From positions 1-24,121 of the forward strand of contig NZ_MAEI01000020.1 of assembly GCF_009933255.1 (NCBI RefSeq): a DNA stretch of 24,121 nucleotides, given 5' to 3'. The position numbers were made by a program, and so were the translations under genes. Within the stretch, counting starts at the first letter, position 1. Each line of letters begins with the position of its first letter. This stretch comes from Enterococcus diestrammenae (GTDB lineage Bacteria > Bacillota > Bacilli > Lactobacillales > Enterococcaceae). This document shows, piece by piece, positions 6,662 through 23,837 of the stretch. Under the pieces are notes generated by a model, which was not told where the DNA came from, did not search any database, and saw nothing but the letters and a program-made list of their open reading frames with translations.

Positions 6662-7480
6662 CTACTTATACATAAAACGGAAATCCCACGCTGTTTTGAT
6701 ACGAGAAGCGTTGGAGATTTCAATTTTATTTTCGCCAGGAACCAATGAGATTAAGCCGTGATTTGTATCAATCCCACAGTGGATACCATTTTTTAGAGGA
6801 TAGACACCATCAAGCGTTAATGTCTCGCCGCTAACGGAATTGAGTGAACCGCGGTAGATAAATCGCTCACCAGTGGTTGCGTTGAACACTGTGAGATTGC
6901 CATCGCTCATCCCTTCAATTTTGATTTTCAGGTAATTTTCTCTTGGATCAATCGTGAAATCGCCGGCATTGAAAATCGTAAAGCGACTGGTCTGATGAGT
7001 GTATTCGTAATCCTCAGAAACTAAACCTTGCGAGAATTGCCAAGTTTCGTCTAGGCTGAAAGCTTTTAGGGTAGTGGATAGGGATTCCCCAGCTCCTTCA
7101 TAAACAAAAAACTCTATACTTCCCATCACATATCGAGCATTTTTTTCAGTGATTTCAATCGCAACTTTGACTTTAAACTGCTTTCCGGGTTCATTCGGAT
7201 TGATCAGCCACAATTCTTTGTCAGTGATCAGCAAAGATTCAAACTCCGTTTCAAAAAGAAAACCATCTTCATATCTTTCGATTTCTTTTAGAAATCTGGT
7301 GGAGTAAGAAAATGGTGCAAAGGATTGATTTTGTATTCGTTGCCCAGTTATACCAGAAAAATTTAGATACTCTACAAACAATTGAGGAGTCGTTCTTTGC
7401 AAACCAGAAAACCTGAGTTTTAAAAATCGATCCGAGAGATTAATTTCTTCTGTTTCTGTTTTAATGATTATATCCGTCAA
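6662..7480 (-). CDS. dit: Distal tail protein (Dit)
   Basis: A 272-residue protein between the tape measure and Tal genes, the normal place for Dit. The N-terminal 130 residues look like the conserved siphophage Dit ring domain (ITGQRIQNQSF, RFLKEIERYEDGFLFETEF). The second half looks like the galectin-like domain, with GDFTIDPRENYLKI and a TTGERFIY stretch. Dit hexamers join the tail tube to the baseplate and carry BppU-type receptor-binding parts, which agrees with the BppU gene downstream. The ATG overlaps the tape measure stop by 4 bp. Confidence 0.85.
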   Translation of the reverse strand: MTDIIIKTETEEINLSDRFLKLRFSGLQRTTPQLFVEYLNFSGITGQRIQNQSFAPFSYSTRFLKEIERYEDGFLFETEFESLLITDKELWLINPNEPGKQFKVKVAIEITEKNARYVMGSIEFFVYEGAGESLSTTLKAFSLDETWQFSQGLVSEDYEYTHQTSRFTIFNAGDFTIDPRENYLKIKIEGMSDGNLTVFNATTGERFIYRGSLNSVSGETLTLDGVYPLKNGIHCGIDTNHGLISLVPGENKIEISNASRIKTAWDFRFMYK

Positions 7481-10400
7481 TTCAAACCACCTCCGTTGTA
7501 GAGTAATTTAAAGAAGCTTTCGCCTGCGTATTTGTTAGCGATCGAGCCGATTGCATCTTTTGAGATAATAAAGTTCTTTTGAGCTATTATCCTCAGAAGT
7601 TTTATAACCTCTTTTAAATCTACTTGATTCTGTGCACTTGCAGGCGCAGGTGGATTTGCAAAATTGTTTGACGCCACGGATAATCGACTTAGTTTTGTGT
7701 CGTCAAACTTAGTCCCTGTAGCATACCGTGGTATCGTCTCCATCATCTTTTGGATAGACGGCCAAATTTTTGTACCTTTTGGTAAGTTGTACGGCGTCCA
7801 TGTAGCTGGCGAGATACCAAAATCACCCTGTGGAGTTAAAAATGGCTCTCGTTTTCCACCATCACCCAACCATACTGGCCCGCCTTGGAAATAAGGGTCA
7901 CCAGTAGCTTTGCCTGGAAGGACTGGGCCGATGAAGTTAGCTCGCACAGTTTTCGTAATCGTATCTGGCAAGTTGTTTTTAAAGTTTAAAACAGACCTAA
8001 AAGCATCCCCGGCTGGCCCGGAGGCGTTATCCACACCATTCATCGTTTTCGTGTTAGGCGAAATATTTCGGTTGTAATAGTTAACACCGTCAGTAGCGCC
8101 TTGCAATGCAGATTTAATCGAGGCGTTGTCCCCGTACAATACCTTTAATGCCGGATGGATAGTCTTATTGTAAGTACCAATAGAAATAGAACCATCAGAT
8201 ATTTTTTTCATTATGTCTTGATTATTTCCAAGCATCAGTTTGACATCTGTTGGAAGACTATTCCAAGCGGCCAAACTCCCTTCTGATGCCATAACCTTAG
8301 AAAGTAAGTCGCTATTATTACCCAAAAGGTGTTTTTCAGTTTCTGGCAAAGATTTCCATCGATTGTACTCTTGCTCAGAGGATAGAATCTTCGCCAACAC
8401 ATCTTGATTGTTACCAAGAATTTTCTTCTCCGTCTCCGGCAAAGCTTTCCAAGCGTTAAACGTTGCCTCGGAACCAGTAATTTTAAGAATTAAATCCTCG
8501 TTGTTACCCAAAATTTTCTTTTGGGCATCCGGGATTTGTTTCCACAAATTAAACCGTTCGTCAGACTCATACAACTTTTTGAGTAAGTCGTAGTTGTCCC
8601 CGAGTATTTCCTTGGTTTCAGCTGGGATAGAATTCCAGTTTCCTAGTTTCTCTTCGGACTTCGCAATAACTCCAAGGAACTCAGCGTTTTTGGCGCCTAG
8701 TTCTTTAATCTCCGGTTGGTACTTATCCCACAATCCCAGGTTTGCCATGGTTTCGGCCATGGTCTCCGGCGTGTTGGAGTAGATGAGAGCTTTCTTTTCT
8801 TCAAAAGATAAACCAGCCCAATCCCCTTTTGCCTGGACGGCTTGGGTCATGGTCTTAGTCACATTGCTGTCCAACATCGCTTGCTGTTCGGTAAAGGATA
8901 GGCCTTCCCATTTTCCGTTGGCGATAGCAGCTTCGGCAATCATTAATTTGGCATTGGAAGATACGTCTGCATCTTTGGCCAGCCACATCATCTGATTCCA
9001 GTTCTTTTCTTCCTTGGCGGCTTCGTTGACAATTTCTTGGGCATTTGTTTTGACATTGCCCTCTTTATCAATGAGTTCCAAGCTATTCCACATATCTCCA
9101 GCGGCCGTACCAGCTTCAGCAGTTAAAGCAATTTGATCTGCATTTTTTTGTGTATTCTCTGCCAACTCATTCGCCATGTCTCCTATACTACGCATGAGTT
9201 TTTCGTTATCTTTTATTAGCAAATCGCTGGCGCCTGTCGCCTCGGAAATAAGTTTTCCCGAACCCATGTGGACTTCGTTTGCCAATTCGGGATATTTTTC
9301 TTTAATGAGAGCCATTTGATTCAAGAAGCCGTCACCAGTCGCTTGATTCATCGCATCCCATTCATCGAGATACTTTTGAGCAAACTCACCGTCGAGGTTA
9401 TAACCCCATTCTTTGAGCCATTCTTCTTGTTCTTTTCTCGACTTAGCATAATGACTTTGCTGTGCATCGTATTGCTCGCCTAAAGATTGCATCATAGCTT
9501 TCGCTTCTTCTTTTGTGGCACTCGATACATCAGCAGTCATAGATTTCAAAATGGCGCGTTTTTGCTCGGCAGATACATCTAGTGTTTCCACGTAAGCCTC
9601 AGCGCTTTTTGTAGACAAATCTTGAATTTGTTTTGCTTCAGAAATCGTTAACTCTCTGTTTTCGTTAGAAGCCTTTTCTCGCAAAGCTTTAATGTGAGCA
9701 TTATTTTCTTCGACAGTAGCAAGAGAGCGTTCGTTCCGTTCTTTTTCGTCAGTTACAATTTGTTCCATTGTATCCGAGACTGTTTCCGGAAGTGCCTTAA
9801 GTAGTCCATCTAGCCCTTGAATTTTTTTAGTTAAACTATCCTCCAAAGTTGTGCCGATGGTAGCGAAGTTATTAGCCATTTCTCCGGTATTTGTCGATAC
9901 ACCGCTTGCTAACAAGCCAAATTGACCACTTGCTTCTTCCGTCTTACTTTTTACGGTGTCGAGAGTCCCAGAAACTTCTACACCGACATCCTCGCCCCAA
10001 CGTTTAACCCGTTGACTAGAGTTCCACGCTTCTTCACCAAATGTTTTCCACGCTCCATAGCCGAGTGCCAAAAGGCCACCAGCGCCGACAATGAGTGGTA
10101 ATGCACCCGCTAGTCCGCTAGCACCTAAAGCTGTAGTTAATGCTCCCACACCGCCGCTTCCGGCTGCTGTTGAAGCTCCAGCGGCTAATTTCAATGTGCC
10201 GTCTGCCATCAGTTCAAATGTTGTTTTGCTAGCTTTCGCCGTTCCTGATAGTTTTCCGATCCACTGGTTTAACTTTCCAACCGTGGATATCCCGCCACCG
10301 GTGATTTTCAGGAAGCCCCCAAGAACTTTAGATACAGGTCCAATCGCTGCAGCTAATCCGATGTATTTCATGATTGCTTGCTGTGTTTCGGGATTGGCTT

Positions 10401-11220
10401 CGCTAAATTTTTGAGCTAGATCAGCGATATTTTTAATGAATGGTTTTGCTGCCTGCACACCGTCTCTTAATGCGCCTAAAAACGGTCCACCAAATTCGAT
10501 GGCAACATCAGTTACTTCGTTTTTCAACATTGCCAATTGTGATTCGACTGTTTCATATCGTTTGCCAGCTTCTTCAGCTAATGCGGTGTTTTCCTCAAAA
10601 GCAGAGTTACCAGTTTCAATAGCCTCGCCAAAAATACCGCTCGCGTTAGCCGCACGTAGCAAGCTATCCCGCAACCGGACTTCTTTGATATCCATATCAT
10701 CTAAAACTTTAATCGCAGACGTGCCGGACTCTTCCGCTTTTGATAAGCCTTCAACAAATTTCATGATGGCTGTAGACGGGTCTTCTTTAAACATTTTTGC
10801 AAACTGATCGCCCGTCATTCCAGCGACGTCAGCAAACTGTTCCAGACTCGTTTTGGACTTATCAGCTTCTTTGTACATTTTCTTAAGCTCGGACCCGGTA
10901 AAGCCCATTTCTTTAGCCACACCGGTTAATTCCTTACCACCGTTTCTAACGGCAATAACCAAACGTTCCCAAGATACACCTTGGTCAGCGGCGTGTTGTT
11001 TCAATTCCTCGAAGGACCCGACACCCTTTTCGGTAGCCAGTTGCATTTGTACCATGACCTTGGAAAAAGCAGACCCACCAGCCTCGGCCTCTACCCCCAC
11101 ACTTGAGAGAGCGGCAGCGAAGCCTAAGATATCCCCCTCGGACATGCCAATCTGTTTACCGGCCCCGGCGAGGCGCAAGGCCATAGCAGAGATTTCTGAT
11201 TCCGTGGTTGCGTAGTTGTT
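7477..11220 (-). CDS. Tail tape measure protein, exon 2 (1,247 residues)
   Basis: Exon 2 begins at the AAC codon at 11220 and encodes 1,247 residues. Joined to exon 1 it gives a 1,545-residue tape measure protein, which sets tail length and fills the tail lumen. The junction reads DLG-NNYATTESEI, matching the conserved TP901-type tape measure core. Next come a hydrophobic Gly/Ala stretch around exon residues 365-395, a long coiled-coil region, and twelve repeats of 30-32 residues anchored by Trp or Tyr (8050-9093). The apparent ORF start at 11223 is the last three intron bases read as TTG and has no ribosome site. Without splicing this exon should not be translated efficiently. Confidence 0.92.
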   Translation of the reverse strand, partial: NNYATTESEISAMALRLAGAGKQIGMSEGDILGFAAALSSVGVEAEAGGSAFSKVMVQMQLATEKGVGSFEELKQHAADQGVSWERLVIAVRNGGKELTGVAKEMGFTGSELKKMYKEADKSKTSLEQFADVAGMTGDQFAKMFKEDPSTAIMKFVEGLSKAEESGTSAIKVLDDMDIKEVRLRDSLLRAANASGIFGEAIETGNSAFEENTALAEEAGKRYETVESQLAMLKNEVTDVAIEFGGPFLGALRDGVQAAKPFIKNIADLAQKFSEANPETQQAIMKYIGLAAAIGPVSKVLGGFLKITGGGISTVGKLNQWIGKLSGTAKASKTTFELMADGTLKLAAGASTAAGSGGVGALTTALGASGLAGALPLIVGAGGLLALGYGAWKTFGEEAWNSSQRVKRWGEDVGVEVSGTLDTVKSKTEEASGQFGLLASGVSTNTGEMANNFATIGTTLEDSLTKKIQGLDGLLKALPETVSDTMEQIVTDEKERNERSLATVEENNAHIKALREKASNENRELTISEAKQIQDLSTKSAEAYVETLDVSAEQKRAILKSMTADVSSATKEEAKAMMQSLGEQYDAQQSHYAKSRKEQEEWLKEWGYNLDGEFAQKYLDEWDAMNQATGDGFLNQMALIKEKYPELANEVHMGSGKLISEATGASDLLIKDNEKLMRSIGDMANELAENTQKNADQIALTAEAGTAAGDMWNSLELIDKEGNVKTNAQEIVNEAAKEEKNWNQMMWLAKDADVSSNAKLMIAEAAIANGKWEGLSFTEQQAMLDSNVTKTMTQAVQAKGDWAGLSFEEKKALIYSNTPETMAETMANLGLWDKYQPEIKELGAKNAEFLGVIAKSEEKLGNWNSIPAETKEILGDNYDLLKKLYESDERFNLWKQIPDAQKKILGNNEDLILKITGSEATFNAWKALPETEKKILGNNQDVLAKILSSEQEYNRWKSLPETEKHLLGNNSDLLSKVMASEGSLAAWNSLPTDVKLMLGNNQDIMKKISDGSISIGTYNKTIHPALKVLYGDNASIKSALQGATDGVNYYNRNISPNTKTMNGVDNASGPAGDAFRSVLNFKNNLPDTITKTVRANFIGPVLPGKATGDPYFQGGPVWLGDGGKREPFLTPQGDFGISPATWTPYNLPKGTKIWPSIQKMMETIPRYATGTKFDDTKLSRLSVASNNFANPPAPASAQNQVDLKEVIKLLRIIAQKNFIISKDAIGSIANKYAGESFFKLLYNGGGLN
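8050..9093 (-). repeat. Twelve aromatic-anchored ~31-residue repeats in the tape measure gene
   Basis: Aromatic codons recur at low-coordinate positions 9088, 8998, 8908, 8818, 8728, 8635, 8542, 8449, 8356, 8263, 8170 and 8074. The steps are 90, 90, 90, 90, 93, 93, 93, 93, 93, 93 and 96 bp. The later copies share WKxLPETEKxxLGNNxDLL. Regularly spaced aromatic residues are a known property of tape measure proteins, and gain or loss of whole units would change tail length. Confidence 0.85.
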
Positions 11221-11430
11221 CAATTTTGTTATCGTGTGGGCTTTTTATCCCTCACTTCTTACAGTTTCCTGTAAGTTCAGCATACATATTCACCTTCGTC
11301 TTTACACGGTCAGGTGCTAACCACTCGTGGAGGTATTTTTGCTCTCTTAACGCTCAACCTCTATGCGTTACGGTGGCGAGTGATGTTCTCGCTTACCTCG
11401 GTATTAGCTTAGTTTTTGGTATAATAAAAA

Positions 11431-11450
11431 CCCCTATTACAAAATAGAGG
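11431..11450 (-). terminator. Terminator-like hairpin overlapping the intron endonuclease stop
   Basis: On the minus strand CCTCTATT-TTGT-AATAGGGG forms an 8-bp stem followed by TTTTTATT. The stop codon of the intron endonuclease (11437-11439) lies inside it. If it terminates, full pre-mRNA for the tape measure needs antitermination or translation-independent read-through. It may instead end a short endonuclease transcript. Confidence 0.65.
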
Positions 11451-12360
11451 TTGTCGGTTTGTTTTCTTCTAAATATAAGGCAAATTGTTTTTTTGTATTA
11501 TGACCATATCCATATTTTTTATGAAATTTACGATGGCAATCTTCGCATAACGTTATTCCGTTATCGGTATTAAACCTTTCTTTTTCGTAAAAATCCCAAG
11601 AATTCAAATGATGAGCGTTCAACTTACGTCCTCTTCTTCCACACATTTGGCAAATATAATCATCTCGCAAGTAAATCTTATCTCTCCATTTTCTGATTGC
11701 TCCGTTTTGCATATCTCTTGCAGCTCGTTCTTCTTCAGTTAATGAAAAGTTATACTTATAATGGTTTTCTCCAGAACGTTTCTCAGTTCCACATTTATTG
11801 CAATGCGAACCTCTTAAAAAAGCATCCGGGGTTACCATAAACTCATGATTACATTTTTTAATGTTGTGTCTCATCAAAAGCGGAGTTTTGTTGTTTTTGT
11901 ATTTCCCTAGAACAATATATTCATTCTTAAAAAGATTAAACACTTCATTTTTGAATTGCTTAGTGGTTTTTCGATTATTGCCAAAGCATTTAGGGCATCT
12001 TGTTCCACCGTTTATAAAGTCGTCTGGTGTTGCAGAATAAAATGTTCCGCATTTTTTATGCGCTAACTCTATCTTATCCTTGCAAGTGACATATTCCCCA
12101 ATAACTTCATATTCATCGTTAGTAAGAGTTTTGACTTTCCTTTTGAATTCATTCGTGTTGCTTTTGAATTTTCCGTTACATAAAGAACACGTTCCTCTTG
12201 TTTTAAAATTTCCTGCGATTACGTTAAACTCTCTATCGCATTTTTTGTGATACATAAGTACATTATCTTTATTAGATACATACTCGCCTCTTACCTCGAA
12301 ATCTGGATAAGTCGAATTTACAAATTCGGAAAACATCTCTGTATTCCATTTTTTACCCAT
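11437..12360 (-). CDS. Intron-encoded HNH homing endonuclease with three zinc-ribbon repeats
   Basis: A 307-residue protein lying wholly inside the group I intron. The N-terminal 195 residues hold three tandem zinc-ribbon-like units, each HxxC or similar followed by CxxC: His38/Cys41/Cys58/Cys61, His101/Cys104/Cys122/Cys125, and His165/Cys170/Cys187/Cys190. The C-terminal part is an HNH nuclease: CQMC (237, 240), HH (250-251), N267 and CEDCH (272-276). It should cut intronless tape measure alleles and drive intron homing. The ATG at 12360 follows GGAGGG by 10 bases. A longer frame to 12459 would start within predicted intron structure and has no ribosome site. Confidence 0.9.
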   Translation of the reverse strand: MGKKWNTEMFSEFVNSTYPDFEVRGEYVSNKDNVLMYHKKCDREFNVIAGNFKTRGTCSLCNGKFKSNTNEFKRKVKTLTNDEYEVIGEYVTCKDKIELAHKKCGTFYSATPDDFINGGTRCPKCFGNNRKTTKQFKNEVFNLFKNEYIVLGKYKNNKTPLLMRHNIKKCNHEFMVTPDAFLRGSHCNKCGTEKRSGENHYKYNFSLTEEERAARDMQNGAIRKWRDKIYLRDDYICQMCGRRGRKLNAHHLNSWDFYEKERFNTDNGITLCEDCHRKFHKKYGYGHNTKKQFALYLEENKPTTSIL

Positions 12361-12463
12361 AATAAATACACCCTCCACAGTGTTTTTTCTCCAATTATTG
12401 TTAAACATGGGAAACGAAGTTGGAGTACTTCGCGTTCGCCCCGTCGGGCTATCCCACACCTTT

Positions 12464-12472
12464 ATTATACCA
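12464..12472 (-). promoter_or_regulatory. Extended -10 promoter candidate inside the intron
   Basis: The minus strand reads TGGTATAAT, a perfect TATAAT with the TGn extension, about 100 bases upstream of the endonuclease ATG. No good -35 box is seen at 17 bp, which extended -10 promoters can tolerate. It could give a spliceless message for the homing endonuclease. Position and sequence only; no transcript evidence. Confidence 0.5.
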
Positions 12473-12546
12473 TAAAACCTTAGCCTTCACCGATTTTGGT
12501 TAGTATTTTATGCTGCCAATTTCTCGGCAACCGGGCAACAATTTTT

Positions 12547-13440
12547 ACCCAAATCTACTAGTGCCGAACCTAAATTGCTAAACTTATCTTGTGACATCCC
12601 GACGATGTTCGCAAAACGCGCCATCTCTGTAGCGGCGGTTTCAGCCGACATGGTTGTCGATTCGCCCATGTCAATCATGGTCTTTGTAAATCCAACAACC
12701 TTATCTGTTTGGACACCTAATTGCCCGGCGGCTTCCGCTACCGCTGCAATCTCTTGGTGGCTGGCCGGTAATTCTTTCGCTAAGCCTCGCAAACCGTCTT
12801 CTAAGTCCTTGTAACTGTATACGACATTCCCATTACTATCAACGACTTCATCATTGGTCTTTTTAACCCCAGCAAAGGCACTCTCCCAATCCATTGCAGC
12901 TTTAACCGTTGCGCCAACACCAGCTACCAATGGCGCAGTAACACCCATCGTCCATTTATTGCCAAAGCTGTTTAACCCGTCGCCTGCTTTTGACACCTTG
13001 CCGCCAACGTTTTCTAGCGCTTGCCCAGCTTTCGTCCAGTTGGACTCGCTGATTGCAATCTGCGTGCCTAACGCTTTGTATTGACCGCTAAGTCGTTCGA
13101 TTTCAGCCGTCGTCTTGTTCATCGTGGCTTCTGCCGATAGCAACTGCGTTTTCTGGTCTGCTGTAGCGTTGTTCACATCGCCGATAGATTGCTTTAAGCC
13201 GTTGTACTTTTCCTTCTGCTTAACCAATTGTGCAGAATAGTTATCAATCGCTTTGCCAGTTAGCGTGTACTGTGCTTTCTGTGCATTAATGCTTTTGGAG
13301 TTATTCTTAAACGATGTTTCTTGTGCTTTTAAAGCGTTGTTAATCGAGCGCATTTGCGTTTCTAAAACCCGGGTCGACTGTTGGAAGGGGTCGATGTTTA
13401 GACTCGCTGTAGCAGCGATATTCCCTAAATTAGTTGCCAT
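12547..13440 (-). CDS. Tail tape measure protein, exon 1 (298 residues)
   Basis: Exon 1 encodes the first 298 residues of the tape measure protein: a coiled coil (about 25-130), then the start of the conserved TP901-type core (MDWESAFAGVKKT, ELPASHQEIAAVAEAAGQLG, SALVDLG). The ATG at 13440 follows AAGGAGG by 5 bases and lies 13 bases after the GT chaperone stop. Exon 1 ends on the complete codon GGT at 12547. Unspliced message would read on into the intron for about a dozen codons (KNCCPVAEKLAA) to a stop at 12508 and yield a short useless product. Confidence 0.92.
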
Positions 13441-19432: not shown

Positions 19433-21175
19433 CTAAAAACCAAAATCATCGCTCAAAATCATTTCATCAGTCCAAAAACCGCCTGATTGAAACTCGGTGT
19501 AACACATTGCATAAGCATCTAGCAGAGCATCTAAAGGATCTATACGATTACTGTTTTTATTCTTATCAATCCGCATGCCATTGTTATCGACTTTTGTCAT
19601 GGCGTTATTGACCGCAGCCGTAAGCAGTTTGTTCCCACTGTGGCGGACTTTCAAATCAATCACATCATCACGTAGCTGTTTCGTCGGCATGTTCAACACA
19701 AGGCTTGTCTGCTTGATTTCTGCTTGGAGCCATTCAGGGTGATTCTTTTCGATTAACGTCAAAATGTGGCCGTATTGATACGGGTCAAACGAGATTGATT
19801 GTAAGTCGAGATCGTTGTCGTAAATAAAATGCTCCAACCATTCGTAGGCCTCGTCGTAGTCAATAACGCCACTTTCCAAGTCGGTAATCTTACACTCATC
19901 AATGGACTGTAGATAGGTGTAGTTCATACCGTCCCGCTTTTCCTTGGTAGCTAGTCCGTACTTAGTAGCGATAAAGCTAAAACTATCCACATAAAAGTAA
20001 TCTTCCATCTGGACCGCCCATGAGATACTAAACAAGTCACTCGTTCGACCAACGTCAATCCCAACCCAAACCTTTCTACCAGTGATATCAGGTTTCTCGA
20101 TTTCCGCTGCTTTCCAATGTTCGGCAGAGAGGTAGGACTCCTCGCTTGCCTGCGTCCACATGTTAAAGTTTTTTACCATCACTTTAACGGTGTTTCCTGT
20201 CTCTTTGGCGGTCTTCCAACGTTTCGTGAGATAATCCATCATTTTGTCTTTTAAGGCGTCCACAACGAGGATAGGGTTGCTTTTAATGTACAGTTCCGGC
20301 TTTTCTATCTCGTCTAACGATTCTTGCTCGGCAATATAGGCAAACTGTTCATCGTCTTCCAAATCACCAGATAAAATACTGCCCATCCGCGGATATTCCA
20401 CGGTGTACATTGGCACGTTTAAATCAAAGTTGGCAGTGGAAATAATCAACGTCAGCGGATTGTCTAGCTGTCCTTGCCCTGATTCGATAAGTTCCATCAT
20501 CTCGTTAGTTTTACTAGCGCCATACTCATCAAACACACCTACATACGGCTCAAAACCATCAATCGCACCAGTCTCTTTAGATAGATAGGTCACATAGGAT
20601 TCATCATTTAAATTTTTTAACTGGTCCCGTACACGTTTGGTTGCTTTGCGGATTTCCGGAAACTTCGCTCGCAAGGCATCTAACTGTTTTCGTGCCATTT
20701 CAAAAGCGATTTTTGCTTGTTCCTTCGCGTTAGCTGTACAAAATATTTGCCTGCTCATTGCTGGGTTCTTGCCAAAAAGGAATTCGTACAGCACAATGCC
20801 CGCGATTAAAATCGTCTTCCCATTTTTCCGGGCTACGCTGATAAAAGCACGCTTAAACCGCCGTAACGCTTTATCTTTCTTGTGGCGCCAACCATAGATA
20901 TTGCCAATAATAAACCGTTGGAAGTTTGCTAGCGGATAAGTTTTGCCTGTTTTAACGTCAGGCAGCATCTCCAAAAATTCAACCGCCTTGCTTGCCTCTT
21001 CCACACTATAAGTGTATTTCCAACTGGCTTTTGGAATCTTTAGGAGGTCTTTCAAATGGCGGACACACGCATCGTAGACTTTCTTGCACGATTCCACCGC
21101 ACGCTCGACGATTAGGACTGCATAGGCATAGGTGTCGTCTCGCAGTTCTTCTGGTATGGATTGGTAGTCAACCAT
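19433..21175 (-). CDS. terL: Terminase large subunit
   Basis: A 580-residue packaging motor of the HK97/Terminase_1 type. The ATPase half shows Walker A SVARKNGKT (113-121), Walker B VGVFDE (213-217, with Asp216 and catalytic Glu217) and the coupling motif IISTANF (244-250). The nuclease half shows GIDVGRTSD (Asp374), SFDPYQYG (Asp464) and NRIDPLDALLDA (Asp546, Asp549), matching the RNase H-like metal site. It pumps DNA into the prohead and cuts the concatemer. The small subunit gene is 24 bp upstream. Confidence 0.95.
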   Translation of the reverse strand: MVDYQSIPEELRDDTYAYAVLIVERAVESCKKVYDACVRHLKDLLKIPKASWKYTYSVEEASKAVEFLEMLPDVKTGKTYPLANFQRFIIGNIYGWRHKKDKALRRFKRAFISVARKNGKTILIAGIVLYEFLFGKNPAMSRQIFCTANAKEQAKIAFEMARKQLDALRAKFPEIRKATKRVRDQLKNLNDESYVTYLSKETGAIDGFEPYVGVFDEYGASKTNEMMELIESGQGQLDNPLTLIISTANFDLNVPMYTVEYPRMGSILSGDLEDDEQFAYIAEQESLDEIEKPELYIKSNPILVVDALKDKMMDYLTKRWKTAKETGNTVKVMVKNFNMWTQASEESYLSAEHWKAAEIEKPDITGRKVWVGIDVGRTSDLFSISWAVQMEDYFYVDSFSFIATKYGLATKEKRDGMNYTYLQSIDECKITDLESGVIDYDEAYEWLEHFIYDNDLDLQSISFDPYQYGHILTLIEKNHPEWLQAEIKQTSLVLNMPTKQLRDDVIDLKVRHSGNKLLTAAVNNAMTKVDNNGMRIDKNKNSNRIDPLDALLDAYAMCYTEFQSGGFWTDEMILSDDFGF

Positions 21176-21199: not shown

Positions 21200-21664
21200 C
21201 TAACCAAACTTATCGAACATGGTTTCTTCCTTCTTTTCTTTCTTAGGAAGATACAAACGAAGACGACTATCAACAGTCAGGCCCAGCTCACTTGCTGTAG
21301 ACTTGATGTTTTTAGTCGCCTTTTCTAGTGTTCTGATTAACGGATTTTCTTTAAATTCCCCGTCAGTGTTCTCAATGATATTTCCCTGCTCTGTCAATTT
21401 CTGGCTAGTCTCTTTAAAGACCGAATACCATAGACAGTAGTTTTCGAGGATAGCACGATCGAGATTTCGAAGTGGTAACTTTTGCAAATCACCAATGACT
21501 CGCTTGTATTCCTGTTTAGCGATGGAGTTCATGTGATTCGGTGCAGTCACTTGCATCTCCACTAACCCGTCACCCGCAAGCTTTTCGGCTGCTTTCCGGT
21601 CTTCGATTTCATCTTTTGTCATGTGCATTTTGTTGTTATCCAATAATGTTAGCTTTCTGCCCAT
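21200..21664 (-). CDS. terS: Terminase small subunit (P27 family)
   Basis: A 154-residue protein of the P27-type small terminase group: MTKDEIEDRKAAEKLAGDG near the N-terminus, NSIAKQEYKRVIGDL and a helical core with LDRAILENYCLWYSVFKE, then a late basic LYLPKKEKKEE tail. It recognises the packaging start site and hands DNA to the large subunit. The start at 21664 follows GGAGGTG; the longer frame to 21736 has no ribosome site. The candidate cos region lies directly upstream. Confidence 0.9.
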   Translation of the reverse strand: MGRKLTLLDNNKMHMTKDEIEDRKAAEKLAGDGLVEMQVTAPNHMNSIAKQEYKRVIGDLQKLPLRNLDRAILENYCLWYSVFKETSQKLTEQGNIIENTDGEFKENPLIRTLEKATKNIKSTASELGLTVDSRLRLYLPKKEKKEETMFDKFG

Positions 21665-21819
21665 TTCCACACCTCCAATCGCTTTAGTAATAGGAAAATC
21701 GGCTCCAGAAGAGAGCGCGTTGTTCAAGACCCCCACAACCCTACCCCGTTTTGCATTTTAGGGGGGTATAGTCCCCACTTTTGCACCGTATACGTAAATA
21801 TTCCCCACCTAGAAACCAC
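21665..21819. other. Candidate cos region between HNH and terS genes
   Basis: About 155 bp without a gene. It holds a run of C- and G-rich blocks, including CCCTACCCCG (21749-21758), TTTTAGGGGGGTATAG and GTCCCC before the terS start. In cos-type HK97-like phages the order HNH endonuclease, cos, terS, terL is common, with the HNH protein helping terminase to cut. The exact cohesive end cannot be read from one sequence. Confidence 0.5.
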
Positions 21820-22164
21820 TCATAAATTATATTTTTGTTTCTCTTCTCTCGTTTTGACTGCATGACATGAGTCACACAATGGTTGAATGTTATCTTTGTC
21901 TAATCTCAAACTCCAATCAACTCGAACAGGAATGATATGATCAGCGAGAGTCGCATCTCCTCCACACTTAGTACACACATAGTAATGCTCATTGAGTACC
22001 ACCTTGCTTAGCTGTCGCCATGCTTTGGAATTGTAGAAGCGCATCAAATCATTCTGGTGTTTCCAGCGCGTGCGGTTGTAGTCTTGGTACTCCTCCTTGC
22101 GACTATCAAAGTCTACGAGCTGTCGCTTGCCGTTGACTACTATCAGTCGCTTAGGCTTTGCCAT
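21820..22164 (-). CDS. HNH endonuclease of the packaging module
   Basis: A 114-residue HNH nuclease. CTKCGG (Cys64, Cys67) and CDSCH (Cys97, Cys100) bind the structural zinc, and ADHIIPV (Asp75, His76), Asn92 and His101 make the ββα-metal active site. It lies next to terS, as in many cos phages where such proteins stimulate terminase cutting at cos. It is unrelated in layout to the intron endonuclease, lacking the zinc-ribbon array. Its start overlaps the upstream gene by 14 bp. Confidence 0.92.
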   Translation of the reverse strand: MAKPKRLIVVNGKRQLVDFDSRKEEYQDYNRTRWKHQNDLMRFYNSKAWRQLSKVVLNEHYYVCTKCGGDATLADHIIPVRVDWSLRLDKDNIQPLCDSCHAVKTREEKQKYNL

Positions 22165-22880: not shown

Positions 22881-22908
22881 TAAATAGACAGCCCGCAATG
22901 GACTGTCT
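22881..22908 (-). terminator. Terminator closing the structured RNA region
   Basis: AGACAGTCC and GGGCTGTCT pair over nine base pairs (one G-U) around ATTGC, then ATTTATTT follows on the minus strand. It lies 22 bases upstream of the next ATG and gives the structured RNA a defined 3' end. Confidence 0.75.
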
Positions 22909-23150
22909 TTGACTATGTATCAGCAACCTACCCAGCCCCGACGTCCGGCTCTCCTCCCTACCTCTGCCTCGGTTGCTATGTACAGATACGGACTGGACTA
23001 CCGCCTCCAGTCGTGGCCAACTCGTGTATTAAAGCCTCACGCAGGCAACTTGCCGTATCCCTAGCAAGTCCAACTTAATGTTAAGCAACCTACCCCATTC
23101 TGGGACCCACCGTTCTTCCAAGCCTGGCGGTTGGGGCTGCTCGGTTGCTA
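22886..23150 (-). ncRNA. Structured RNA, downstream module (candidate part of a GOLLD/ROOL-like RNA)
   Basis: No gene fits this stretch, but helices are dense. Two similar arms open AGCAACCGAG and close GGTAGGTTGCT: stems 22922-22928/22971-22977 and 23084-23090/23143-23149. Between them are GACTGGA/TCCAGTC (22991-22997/23006-23012), GCCT/AGGC (23034-23037/23043-23046) and ACTTGC/GCAAGT (23048-23053/23064-23069). The loop of the last holds CGTATC (23054-23059), which pairs with GATACG (22985-22990) to make a pseudoknot. A terminator ends it. The setting, a phage late operon beside a tRNA, fits giant phage RNAs, but no family match was computed. Confidence 0.65.
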
Positions 23151-23172
23151 TTGACGTGGCAGGATTCGAACC
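23149..23172 (-). repeat. Duplicated tRNA 3' end (T-arm and half acceptor)
   Basis: The 24 bases match 23413-23436, the 3' end of the tRNA-Lys gene plus flank, with two mismatches. On the minus strand they give CAGG-TTCGAAT-CCTG, a perfect T-arm, then CCACGTCA. No matching 5' acceptor half, D-arm or anticodon arm is found upstream, where a gene ends at 23200. It is either a tRNA remnant or a T-arm used inside the structured RNA. Confidence 0.7.
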
Positions 23173-23199
23173 TGACGAGCCTCCGTTTTTCGGTCAGCC

Positions 23200-23376
23200 C
23201 TAAAATGCATGTACCGTACGTGCATGCTGCTCAATCGCTTTATCTAGTTTCATGCCTGCTCTTTTATCATCTACAATCGCTTTGATGCCTTCCAACTCAT
23301 GTAGAGAAAATCGTCTATCCTCGGAAACTTTCTTCAAATATGCTTCTTCACCTTTTAAAATAGCTTCTTGTAACAT
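23200..23376 (-). CDS. Small acidic/helical hypothetical protein inside the RNA region
   Basis: A 58-residue protein, not recognised, predicted almost all helix (MLQEAILKGEEAYLKKV, RRFSLHELEGIKAIVDDK). Two ATGs are possible; the second, at 23376, lies 7 bases after GAGGAGG, while the first, at 23382, overlaps that site. It sits between the tRNA-Lys and the tRNA-like repeat, so it interrupts the structured RNA region. The good ribosome site makes it a likely real gene. Confidence 0.68.
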   Translation of the reverse strand: MLQEAILKGEEAYLKKVSEDRRFSLHELEGIKAIVDDKRAGMKLDKAIEQHARTVHAF

Positions 23377-23415
23377 TTCCATTCCTCCTCAAAATAAAAA
23401 GCCACCCGCAATTAT

Positions 23416-23486
23416 TGACGCGACAGGATTCGAACCCGCGACCTTGGATTAAAAATCCACCGCTCCACCAACTGAGCTACGCGTCA
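23416..23486 (-). tRNA. tRNA-Lys (anticodon UUU)
   Basis: A 71-nt cloverleaf: acceptor TGACGCG/CGCGTCA (7 perfect pairs), D-arm GCTC/GAGC, anticodon loop TTTTTAA with TTT at 23451-23453, short variable loop GGTC and T-arm GCGGG-TTCGAAT-CCTGT. The anticodon stem has a mismatch at the 27-43 pair (G and A). CCA is not encoded. It is minus strand, in line with the late genes. Confidence 0.92.
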
Positions 23487-23791
23487 CCTTGGAGGAGCTA
23501 CCTCCATGAGATTGACTTGTCCTGACGGTACCTGCTAGACAAGCTCAGCACCTAATGGCTCGGAGTACCGTCTCAACCTCTTTGGGTCAGATACTCAATG
23601 CTCCGCGCTAAGAGTCAAGGAGTCCTCCCAATGTCACTGGAGTGGCACTGCCCCACTCACGGTAGTTTCAGCTCGGCTTGTTGCGGATTCTACTACCAAC
23701 CCTAGAGGTCTCTCACCTCTCGAAACCATTCATAATGATGGCACCACCGATAATTCAACCTATATGCGTCTTCTACTTCCGCCACAGTGAC
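23487..23791 (-). ncRNA. Structured RNA, upstream module with pseudoknot
   Basis: No convincing gene lies here. Helices include a long-range GTCACTG/CAGTGAC (23633-23639 with 23785-23791), AGAGGT/ACCTCT (23704-23709/23715-23720), GGTAGT/ACTACC (23661-23666/23692-23697), GAGTGG/CCACTC (23640-23645/23653-23658) and GGAGG/CCTCC (23491-23495/23501-23505). GACGGTAC/GTACCGTC (23524-23531/23565-23572) and CTTGTC/GACAAG (23516-23521/23538-23543) interleave as a pseudoknot. The tRNA-Lys follows at once. Together with the downstream module it may form one large RNA. Its 5' end is not defined and no promoter was recognised. Confidence 0.6.
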
Positions 23792-23837
23792 TATCGCCCA
23801 CAGAATAATTTTTACGTATCAAAAAATCGCATTGTTA

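Follow-up and report, generated by a model that had tools for sequence, protein, structure and literature searches.

The 5′ part of a prophage late operon in Enterococcus diestrammenae can be read, with moderate confidence, as a mosaic of RNA modules that starts with a tRNA-like module, here called TLS, and most likely yields RNAs serving as decoys for, or adaptors to, proteins of the host that handle tRNA. Judged by comparison of homologous sequences, the TLS very probably represents a class of RNAs with a predicted tRNA-Leu-like scaffold in which an insert stands in place of the anticodon arm. The window, i.e. the whole stretch of 24,121 nucleotides analysed (contig C20), is a late operon on the minus strand with amidase, tail and head genes, TerL, TerS, HNH and small ORFs, and the RNA region (22886-23791, minus strand) forms its 5′ part, upstream of HNH-TerS-TerL (Table 1). 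The first-pass annotation had proposed a region of structured RNA with a phage tRNA ahead of the packaging genes, which is borne out by comparison with homologues, including covariation. Its further proposal of one large ornate RNA of the GOLLD or ROOL type is not sustained: the region reads instead as separate shuffled modules, and Rfam models find neither GOLLD nor ROOL in the window, whether the limit is the gathering level or E ≤ 10.

Table 1. Features of the RNA region and the adjoining packaging genes, in window coordinates
Feature	Position	Strand	Basis or remark
3′ half (TGTGGGCGATA) of 5′ hairpin	23792..23802	-	complete in L140 as TATCGCCCACA..TGTGGGCGATA
TLS module, 159 nt, tRNA-Leu-like scaffold	23633..23791	-	comparison with homologues
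TLS insert, 107 nt, replacing anticodon and variable arms	23659..23765	-	sequence comparison
MID module (GGGAGGACTC..TCTGACCC..)	23506..23632	-	module seeds
Hairpin GGAGG-TAGCT-CCTCC, recurring ahead of tRNA slot	23491..23505	-	module comparison
tRNA-Lys (TTT), CCA not encoded	23415..23486	-	Rfam, ARAGORN
Late-leader terminator, 3′ half (ATTGCGGGTGGCTTTTTATTTT)	23391..23412 (approx.)	-	comparison
58-codon ORF	23200..23376	-	without Pfam match
Second tRNA, 3′ half (T-arm and acceptor 3′ strand)	23152..23176	-	5′ half not found by eye
Arm module 1, AGCAACC..GGTTGCT	23084..23149	-	homologues
LSR module (ACATTAAGTTGGACTTGCTAGG..)	22978..23081	-	module seeds
Arm module 2, closing scaffold as arm 1, interior different	22922..22977	-	comparison
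Intrinsic terminator AGACAGTCC..GGGCTGTCT and T-rich tail	22886..22908	-	terminator prediction
HNH	21820-22164	-	late operon
Terminase small subunit (TerS)	21200..21736	-	PF05119
Terminase large subunit (TerL)	19433..21175	-	PF20441, PF03354

Composition of the RNA region

Because single-sequence folding energies in the region are ordinary or weak (minimum free energy z-scores of -0.23, -1.04, -0.99 and -1.71), its structure must be judged from homologues. The window TLS reads GTCACTG-TG-GCG..CGC-[107 nt]-GAGTGG-GGCAGTG-CCACTC-CAGTGAC, that is, a 7-bp acceptor (GTCACTG/CAGTGAC), a D-arm (GCG..CGC) and a 6-bp T-stem (GAGTGG/CCACTC) with the loop GGCAGTG; it scores 35.7 bits with model R1, to which the insert is partly aligned, and 19.8 bits with model R2, and the entire TLS of L041 is 99% identical to it. 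Its first base, 23791, had been the upper limit of the first-pass annotation, which did not name the TLS module or the 3′ halves of a second tRNA and of a terminator. The 5′ partner of the TGTGGGCGATA hairpin half is missing between 23802 and the contig end.

The tRNA-Lys(TTT) annotated earlier is present, and the closing terminator corresponds to a terminator-like hairpin, one of two such sites as against 0.7 expected in shuffles. The two paralogous arms also stand as an internal duplication; arm modules have AGCAACC(GAG)..GGTTGCT in common and variable interiors. Among eight homologues of arm 1, two inner pairs are double-changed (6 cells versus 2.2 in shuffles), with both changes splitting off the same 3/8 sequences, and the number of both-side-changed pairs is not above that in shuffles (2 versus 1.6; 315/500). 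When only the arms were used as the search pattern, 76 viral stretches matched, including 53 new ones. A strict TLS start lies at most 900 nt upstream in 28/53; many of the other 25 have a variant TLS, and several offer too little upstream sequence. In three of these 25 (L223, L240 and L242) the arm pattern looks like a chance occurrence in other sequence.

The tRNA-Lys is followed by the terminator 3′ half, the small ORF, the tRNA 3′ half and then the next modules. The length of 58 codons given earlier for the ORF is correct for the second ATG (23376), which is better spaced from AGGAGG, and becomes 60 codons from the first (23382). The ATTGCGGGTGGCTTTTTATTTT remnant can pair only with the tRNA 3′ end, in a weak hairpin of 5 pairs, and no 5′ half was found by eye for the second tRNA. 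An ORF homologue lies directly 3′ of an intact terminator in L056/L042, and in L034, L035 and L044 the next module follows the tRNA slot directly, with no gene between. A gene between modules had been thought unusual; the gene is there, and together with the half tRNA it most likely marks where two cassettes have fused, one contributing its modules and first gene and the other its 3′ part.

Contig C21 of this genome has part of another cassette at its end (L040, 1661-2027), to which positions 23491-23607 are 95% identical; the assembly may have been interrupted by the repeated modules. In other loci a gene for DUF6275 (PF19791) occurs near or inside the cassette, namely in an E. faecium element (L201, 5828-6088), in Enterococcus phage EH-TP1 (L033, 4280-4540) and in ATCC 8014-B2 (L414, 2568-2828), and its product is a candidate protein partner for the RNA.

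A covarying tRNA-like scaffold

A first pattern, based on the 5′ end of the scaffold, matched at least 120 viral stretches; in the species-genome collection it matched 19, of which 11 are from Enterococcus, 2 from Lacticaseibacillus and 6 from others. Five of these six others are ordinary tRNA-Leu, and the sixth, L191 (Nocardioides), is a false match, without a tRNA-like 3′ half. Among the matches listed there are 109 distinct hits, 18 of which are ordinary tRNA-Leu and 91 non-canonical. A T-arm with a matching acceptor 3′ strand lies downstream in 86/91 non-canonical hits, compared with 137/910 shuffles (15%), and is missing by the rule used in the other five. A search with a T-stem of 5 bp matched just 3/91; the stem is one of 6 bp. 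These 86 TLS range from 70 to 222 nt in length; L074, in which an insert in the T-loop had caused the T-arm to be miscalled, was later dropped, leaving 85.

The covariation that the first-pass annotation had named as the check on its structured RNA is found in the TLS acceptor and T-stem; arm 1, as described above, has two double-changed pairs. In 44 distinct scaffolds of the first set, 98.3% of cells are paired and 67 are double-changed, compared with 23.4 in shuffles (0/500), and the both-side-changed pairs are not above shuffles (5 versus 4.0; 87/500). Because the first pattern had fixed the 5′ acceptor, a second scan used the D-arm alone and left the acceptor free. Among the matches listed, it yielded 113 distinct hits in new loci, and in the 85 of these that have a T-arm the acceptor, of which there are 64 distinct versions, is paired at 7/7 positions in 60, at 6/7 in 10 and at 5/7 or fewer in 15. 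With swapped 3′ ends, 7/7 pairing occurs in 3.9% and 6/7 in 7.8%, i.e. at least 6/7 in 11.7%, compared with 70/85 for the real ends. The 63 distinct scaffolds with at least 6/7 pairs show both-side changes at 7/7 acceptor pairs and covariation at 5/6 T-stem pairs, with 256 double-changed cells versus 69 in shuffles and a covariation score of 0.695 versus 0.178; the selection inflates the share of paired cells and not the number of different pair types, and the loci are related, so that such counts are not independent events. The comparative evidence for the predicted scaffold is thus that of the cells, the score and the second set, and not the pair count of the first set.

The remaining 28/113 hits, which have no T-arm, include several ordinary tRNAs and six with an insert inside the T-loop. 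This second insertion site, with GTGACTAT..ACGAG and CTCG[TG]CAAAT as conserved borders, is seen in L280, L289, L315, L329, L343 and L348, and also in L074.

The D-loop and T-loop are linked across the insert: a D-loop AGGGT is accompanied by a T-loop TTC in 38/38 cases and TAGGT by TGC in 13/14, and GTAGA by TTC in 0/25, with a cluster-level mutual information of 1.17 versus 0.35 (0/10000). This linkage fits a predicted elbow and could in part reflect common descent.

A canonical tRNA has a T-stem of 5 bp and an acceptor/T helix of 12 bp. The TLS departs from this with a T-stem of 6 bp and an acceptor/T helix of 7+6 bp, and it has no anticodon arm with a 7-nt loop. ARAGORN, with tRNA and tmRNA calls counted together, recognises 0/86 TLS of the first set and 1/70 of the second (1/156 overall). 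No Rfam intron, group I introns included, matched at gathering level in 58 loci, and the TLS read contain no anticodon-stem halves.

Variation of the insert

Grouped by shared 8-mers, the inserts fall into 36 clusters among the 85 TLS of the first set and 62 among 70 of the second, which are upper bounds for the number of families, since some clusters (L078/L093, L080/L137) are visibly related. These related inserts occupy different scaffold types, as does one computed cluster (that of L035). In the one insert family that could be tested, an alignment of the L078 and L093 types, 4/13 pairs are double-changed (0/500), and all four both-side changes lie in one of the 7 sequences, of L093 type. 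An 88-nt TLS has a hairpin with a 4-nt loop at the site expected for an anticodon loop, and covariation there is modest.

Distribution and gene neighbourhood

Under a single rule applied throughout, with permitted T-loops that were derived from the same data, a TLS is present in 208/311 viral loci among the matches listed, and TLS are found in the cultured Lactobacillus phages Sha1, phiJL-1, Satyr and P1. A detectable tRNA lies within about 1.5 kb in 16/70 loci of the second set. When the 971-nt region was used as a query against the genus (10 genomes) and the family (105 genomes), matches at E ≤ 1e-6 occurred in 21/105 family genomes, in six by way of the tRNA stretch only and in one by way of a CRISPR spacer only; the other family matches come in blocks whose order differs. 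Scoring of 128 loci with a fixed set of module seeds yields 54 different module orders. These loci are not independent, forming 80 groups by 15-mer overlap; some are truncated at contig ends, and at least one (L191, Nocardioides) is false.

A genome pattern applied over the order gave 0/395, being too strict for this to signify absence. Model R2 found 13 matches in 12 of 149 genomes of the phylum; 10 of 11 inspected read as tRNA-Leu, of which true copies reach 35.8 bits with R2, or as fragments of it, one (L405) looks TLS-like, and L400 and L408 lie outside the inspected stretch. A BLAST search of one TLS against the phage collection gave no match, and matches in Listeria and EF62phi are to a terminator or a gene, not to a TLS. 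No Rfam family matched a TLS in 58 loci, not all of which bear one. A literature search, beyond whose coverage lay most subscription papers and preprints, returned no recognisable account of the class, and the available portion of the enterococcal RNA maps (PMC7724050) holds no relevant passage.

In several loci ARAGORN labels the occupant of the tRNA slot Stop(tta) or SeC(tca), and these are possibly further non-decoding mimics. A CRISPR array in a genome of the same family (G084; L055, 1501-1533) has a spacer that is 94% identical, across 33 nt, to the junction of tRNA 3′ end and arm, a hint that foreign DNA brings this junction into cells.

Between the RNA region and the contig end lie 330 bases, so that a late activator or a promoter may be situated beyond the contig; within the window, 2 promoter-like sites were found as against 2.1 expected, none standing out, and no ArpU gene was found. 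Elsewhere, according to phmmer with four and six queries, which may miss cases, ArpU-type proteins are encoded upstream in 76/108 loci offering 900 nt to inspect and HNH, TerS or TerL downstream in 35/54 loci offering 4 kb. The annotation of the E. faecium records L200-L202 agrees with ArpU upstream and HNH/TerS/TerL downstream, and Lactobacillus phage Sha1 has the gene order RinA-cassette-HNH-TerS-TerL. For type-C TLS, where 20/22 downstream and 10/22 upstream candidate ORFs were examined, the 4 kb downstream has TerL as its largest ORF in 8/20 and a portal gene in one, which has TerL upstream; in the rest the largest ORF is a DNA polymerase, RecE, another enzyme or unknown, so that some TLS adjoin replication genes.

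In the same operon, the tape-measure gene (7477-13440) is interrupted by an HNH ORF (11437-12459), which is likely an intron- or intein-like insertion. The two halves match positions 5-88 and 87-193 of the PF10145 profile, both under the curated cut-off, and the sole Rfam match there is a sub-threshold one to int-alpA (28.6 bits versus a gathering level of 35.8).

Possible functions of the TLS

Function is deduced here from architecture alone. A fast-changing insert on a tRNA mimic fits a decoy or an adaptor best, and we tentatively suggest this role for the TLS. A single transcript would span the late leader, and RNase P and RNase Z would cut this RNA at each tRNA and TLS, because both enzymes read acceptor and elbow. 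The freed TLS, unable to decode, would present its insert as a specificity domain and might in this form bind or divert host proteins acting on tRNA, plausibly tRNA-cleaving or tRNA-modifying antiphage effectors. Such targets would account for both the rapid turnover of the insert and the adjacent tRNA-Lys. Published work describes RNase P, RNase Z and the CCA-adding enzyme as reading the elbow (PMC4810234), and the scaffold keeps the acceptor and probably the elbow. Antiphage systems, some of which phage tRNAs counter, are described as attacking tRNAs either in the variable loop or at the acceptor end (PMC13096335, PMC11559606); Septu and retron-Eco7 cleave the tRNA-Tyr variable loop, which a phage tRNA counters (PMC13096335).

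It is also possible, though rather doubtful, that the TLS and tRNAs just mark the cuts by which RNase P and RNase Z free the arms, LSR and ROOL, the insert being filler. TLS do flank other modules, the ROOL of L286 appears to lie between TLS-like units, and it is the acceptor and T-arm that are kept and the anticodon that is not. However, one insert family covaries and one insert cluster occurs on two scaffold types, which argues that inserts are not mere filler, and 9/128 cassettes consist of TLS and terminator alone among the modules scored.

The recurrent site between ArpU/RinA and the first packaging genes, with an intrinsic terminator at its end, would suit a cis-acting leader of the late operon, for example an antitermination element before its own terminator. 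This is unlikely, because among the modules scored the TLS, which served to find the loci, is the sole element common to all cassettes, interiors are hypervariable, and type-C TLS also lie near DNA polymerase or RecE genes.

LeuRS reads A73 and the elbow, not the anticodon, so that a TLS with its tRNA-Leu-like D-arm might be charged by LeuRS and act as a leucine sink or regulator. Position 73 is A in 45/85 T-arm hits of the second set, but T in 60/86 TLS of the first set; CCA is encoded in 2/85 of the second set, and the acceptor-T helix has 13 bp, compared with 12 in tRNA-Leu. Charging is therefore quite unlikely, even though contact of LeuRS with the elbow is described in PMC4810234.

A terminase helper resembling the phi29 pRNA is less plausible again. 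TerL does follow within 4 kb in the eight type-C cases above, and the ninth has a portal gene with TerL upstream, but there is no Rfam packaging-RNA match in the window, some phage TLS are near replication genes, and variability would fit a motor part poorly. That the TLS are decaying tRNA genes without function, as the half tRNA of the window might suggest, is highly improbable and is contradicted for the class by the compensatory changes at every acceptor pair and at five of six T-stem pairs; conceivably, the window's own copy has lost its function.

Returning to decoys or adaptors, we would cautiously extend the suggestion to tailed phages beyond Enterococcus, which might carry hypervariable RNA effectors on one anticodon-less scaffold in interchangeable late-leader cassettes, with tRNAs and an optional ROOL. 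Such cassettes would do with RNA what anti-defence islands do with proteins, and their targets would be the tRNA-acting defence proteins of the host. The TLS would offer a short, deletable element for asking what such phage RNAs do.

Comparison with known systems

Like the RNA of the window, ROOL (RF03087) is a structured RNA of phages and prophages near tRNAs, but it is one RNA of about 570 nt, whereas the window has separate modules of 56-159 nt without a ROOL match. ROOL was found in 3/58 loci scanned with Rfam (L279, L286 and L414, the last taken in for its likeness to L286). The earlier hunch of a ROOL fails for the window itself and is partly borne out by related loci, with a true ROOL beside the TLS and next to terminase in L286 and L414. 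The order in L286, a contig of Lactobacillus-phage type, appears to be TLS-like unit, ROOL, TLS-like unit, TLS, terminator and putative TerS ORF; L275 and L284 are similar, with no ROOL in the stretch read. ATCC 8014-B2 (L414) has ROOL, tRNAs, the DUF6275 gene and a TLS between TerS and TerL, and this TLS, with a D-loop one base shorter, is detected by R2 only in part. ROOL is thereby placed as one element of a shuffled locus. GOLLD, for which Rfam has a profile, is likewise a phage RNA near tRNA islands, and tRNAs sometimes lie in its linker, according to PMC12286853.

In tmRNA, as in the TLS, the ends resemble those of a tRNA and other RNA replaces the anticodon arm, but ARAGORN found no tmRNA, which would have a tag ORF, in the loci searched. 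The tRNA-like structures of plant RNA viruses are 3′-terminal and aminoacylated, whereas the TLS is internal and occurs in DNA phages. With tRNA-Leu the TLS shares the D-arm sequence and the architecture of acceptor and T-arm, and it differs in having no anticodon arm, a T-stem of 6 bp and a hypervariable insert. The pseudo-tRNA tRNA-Other of Bacillus cereus, as described in PMC3399842, is tRNA-like, acts outside translation and forms part of a larger RNA adjacent to a genomic island; its Trp anticodon is retained, whereas the TLS is a diverse phage class without one. Mimicry of tRNA as such is known; what is new is the architecture, in which a covarying tRNA scaffold lacks the anticodon and bears a hypervariable insert. 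The TLS would be a naturally occurring equivalent of aptamers engineered on a tRNA scaffold.
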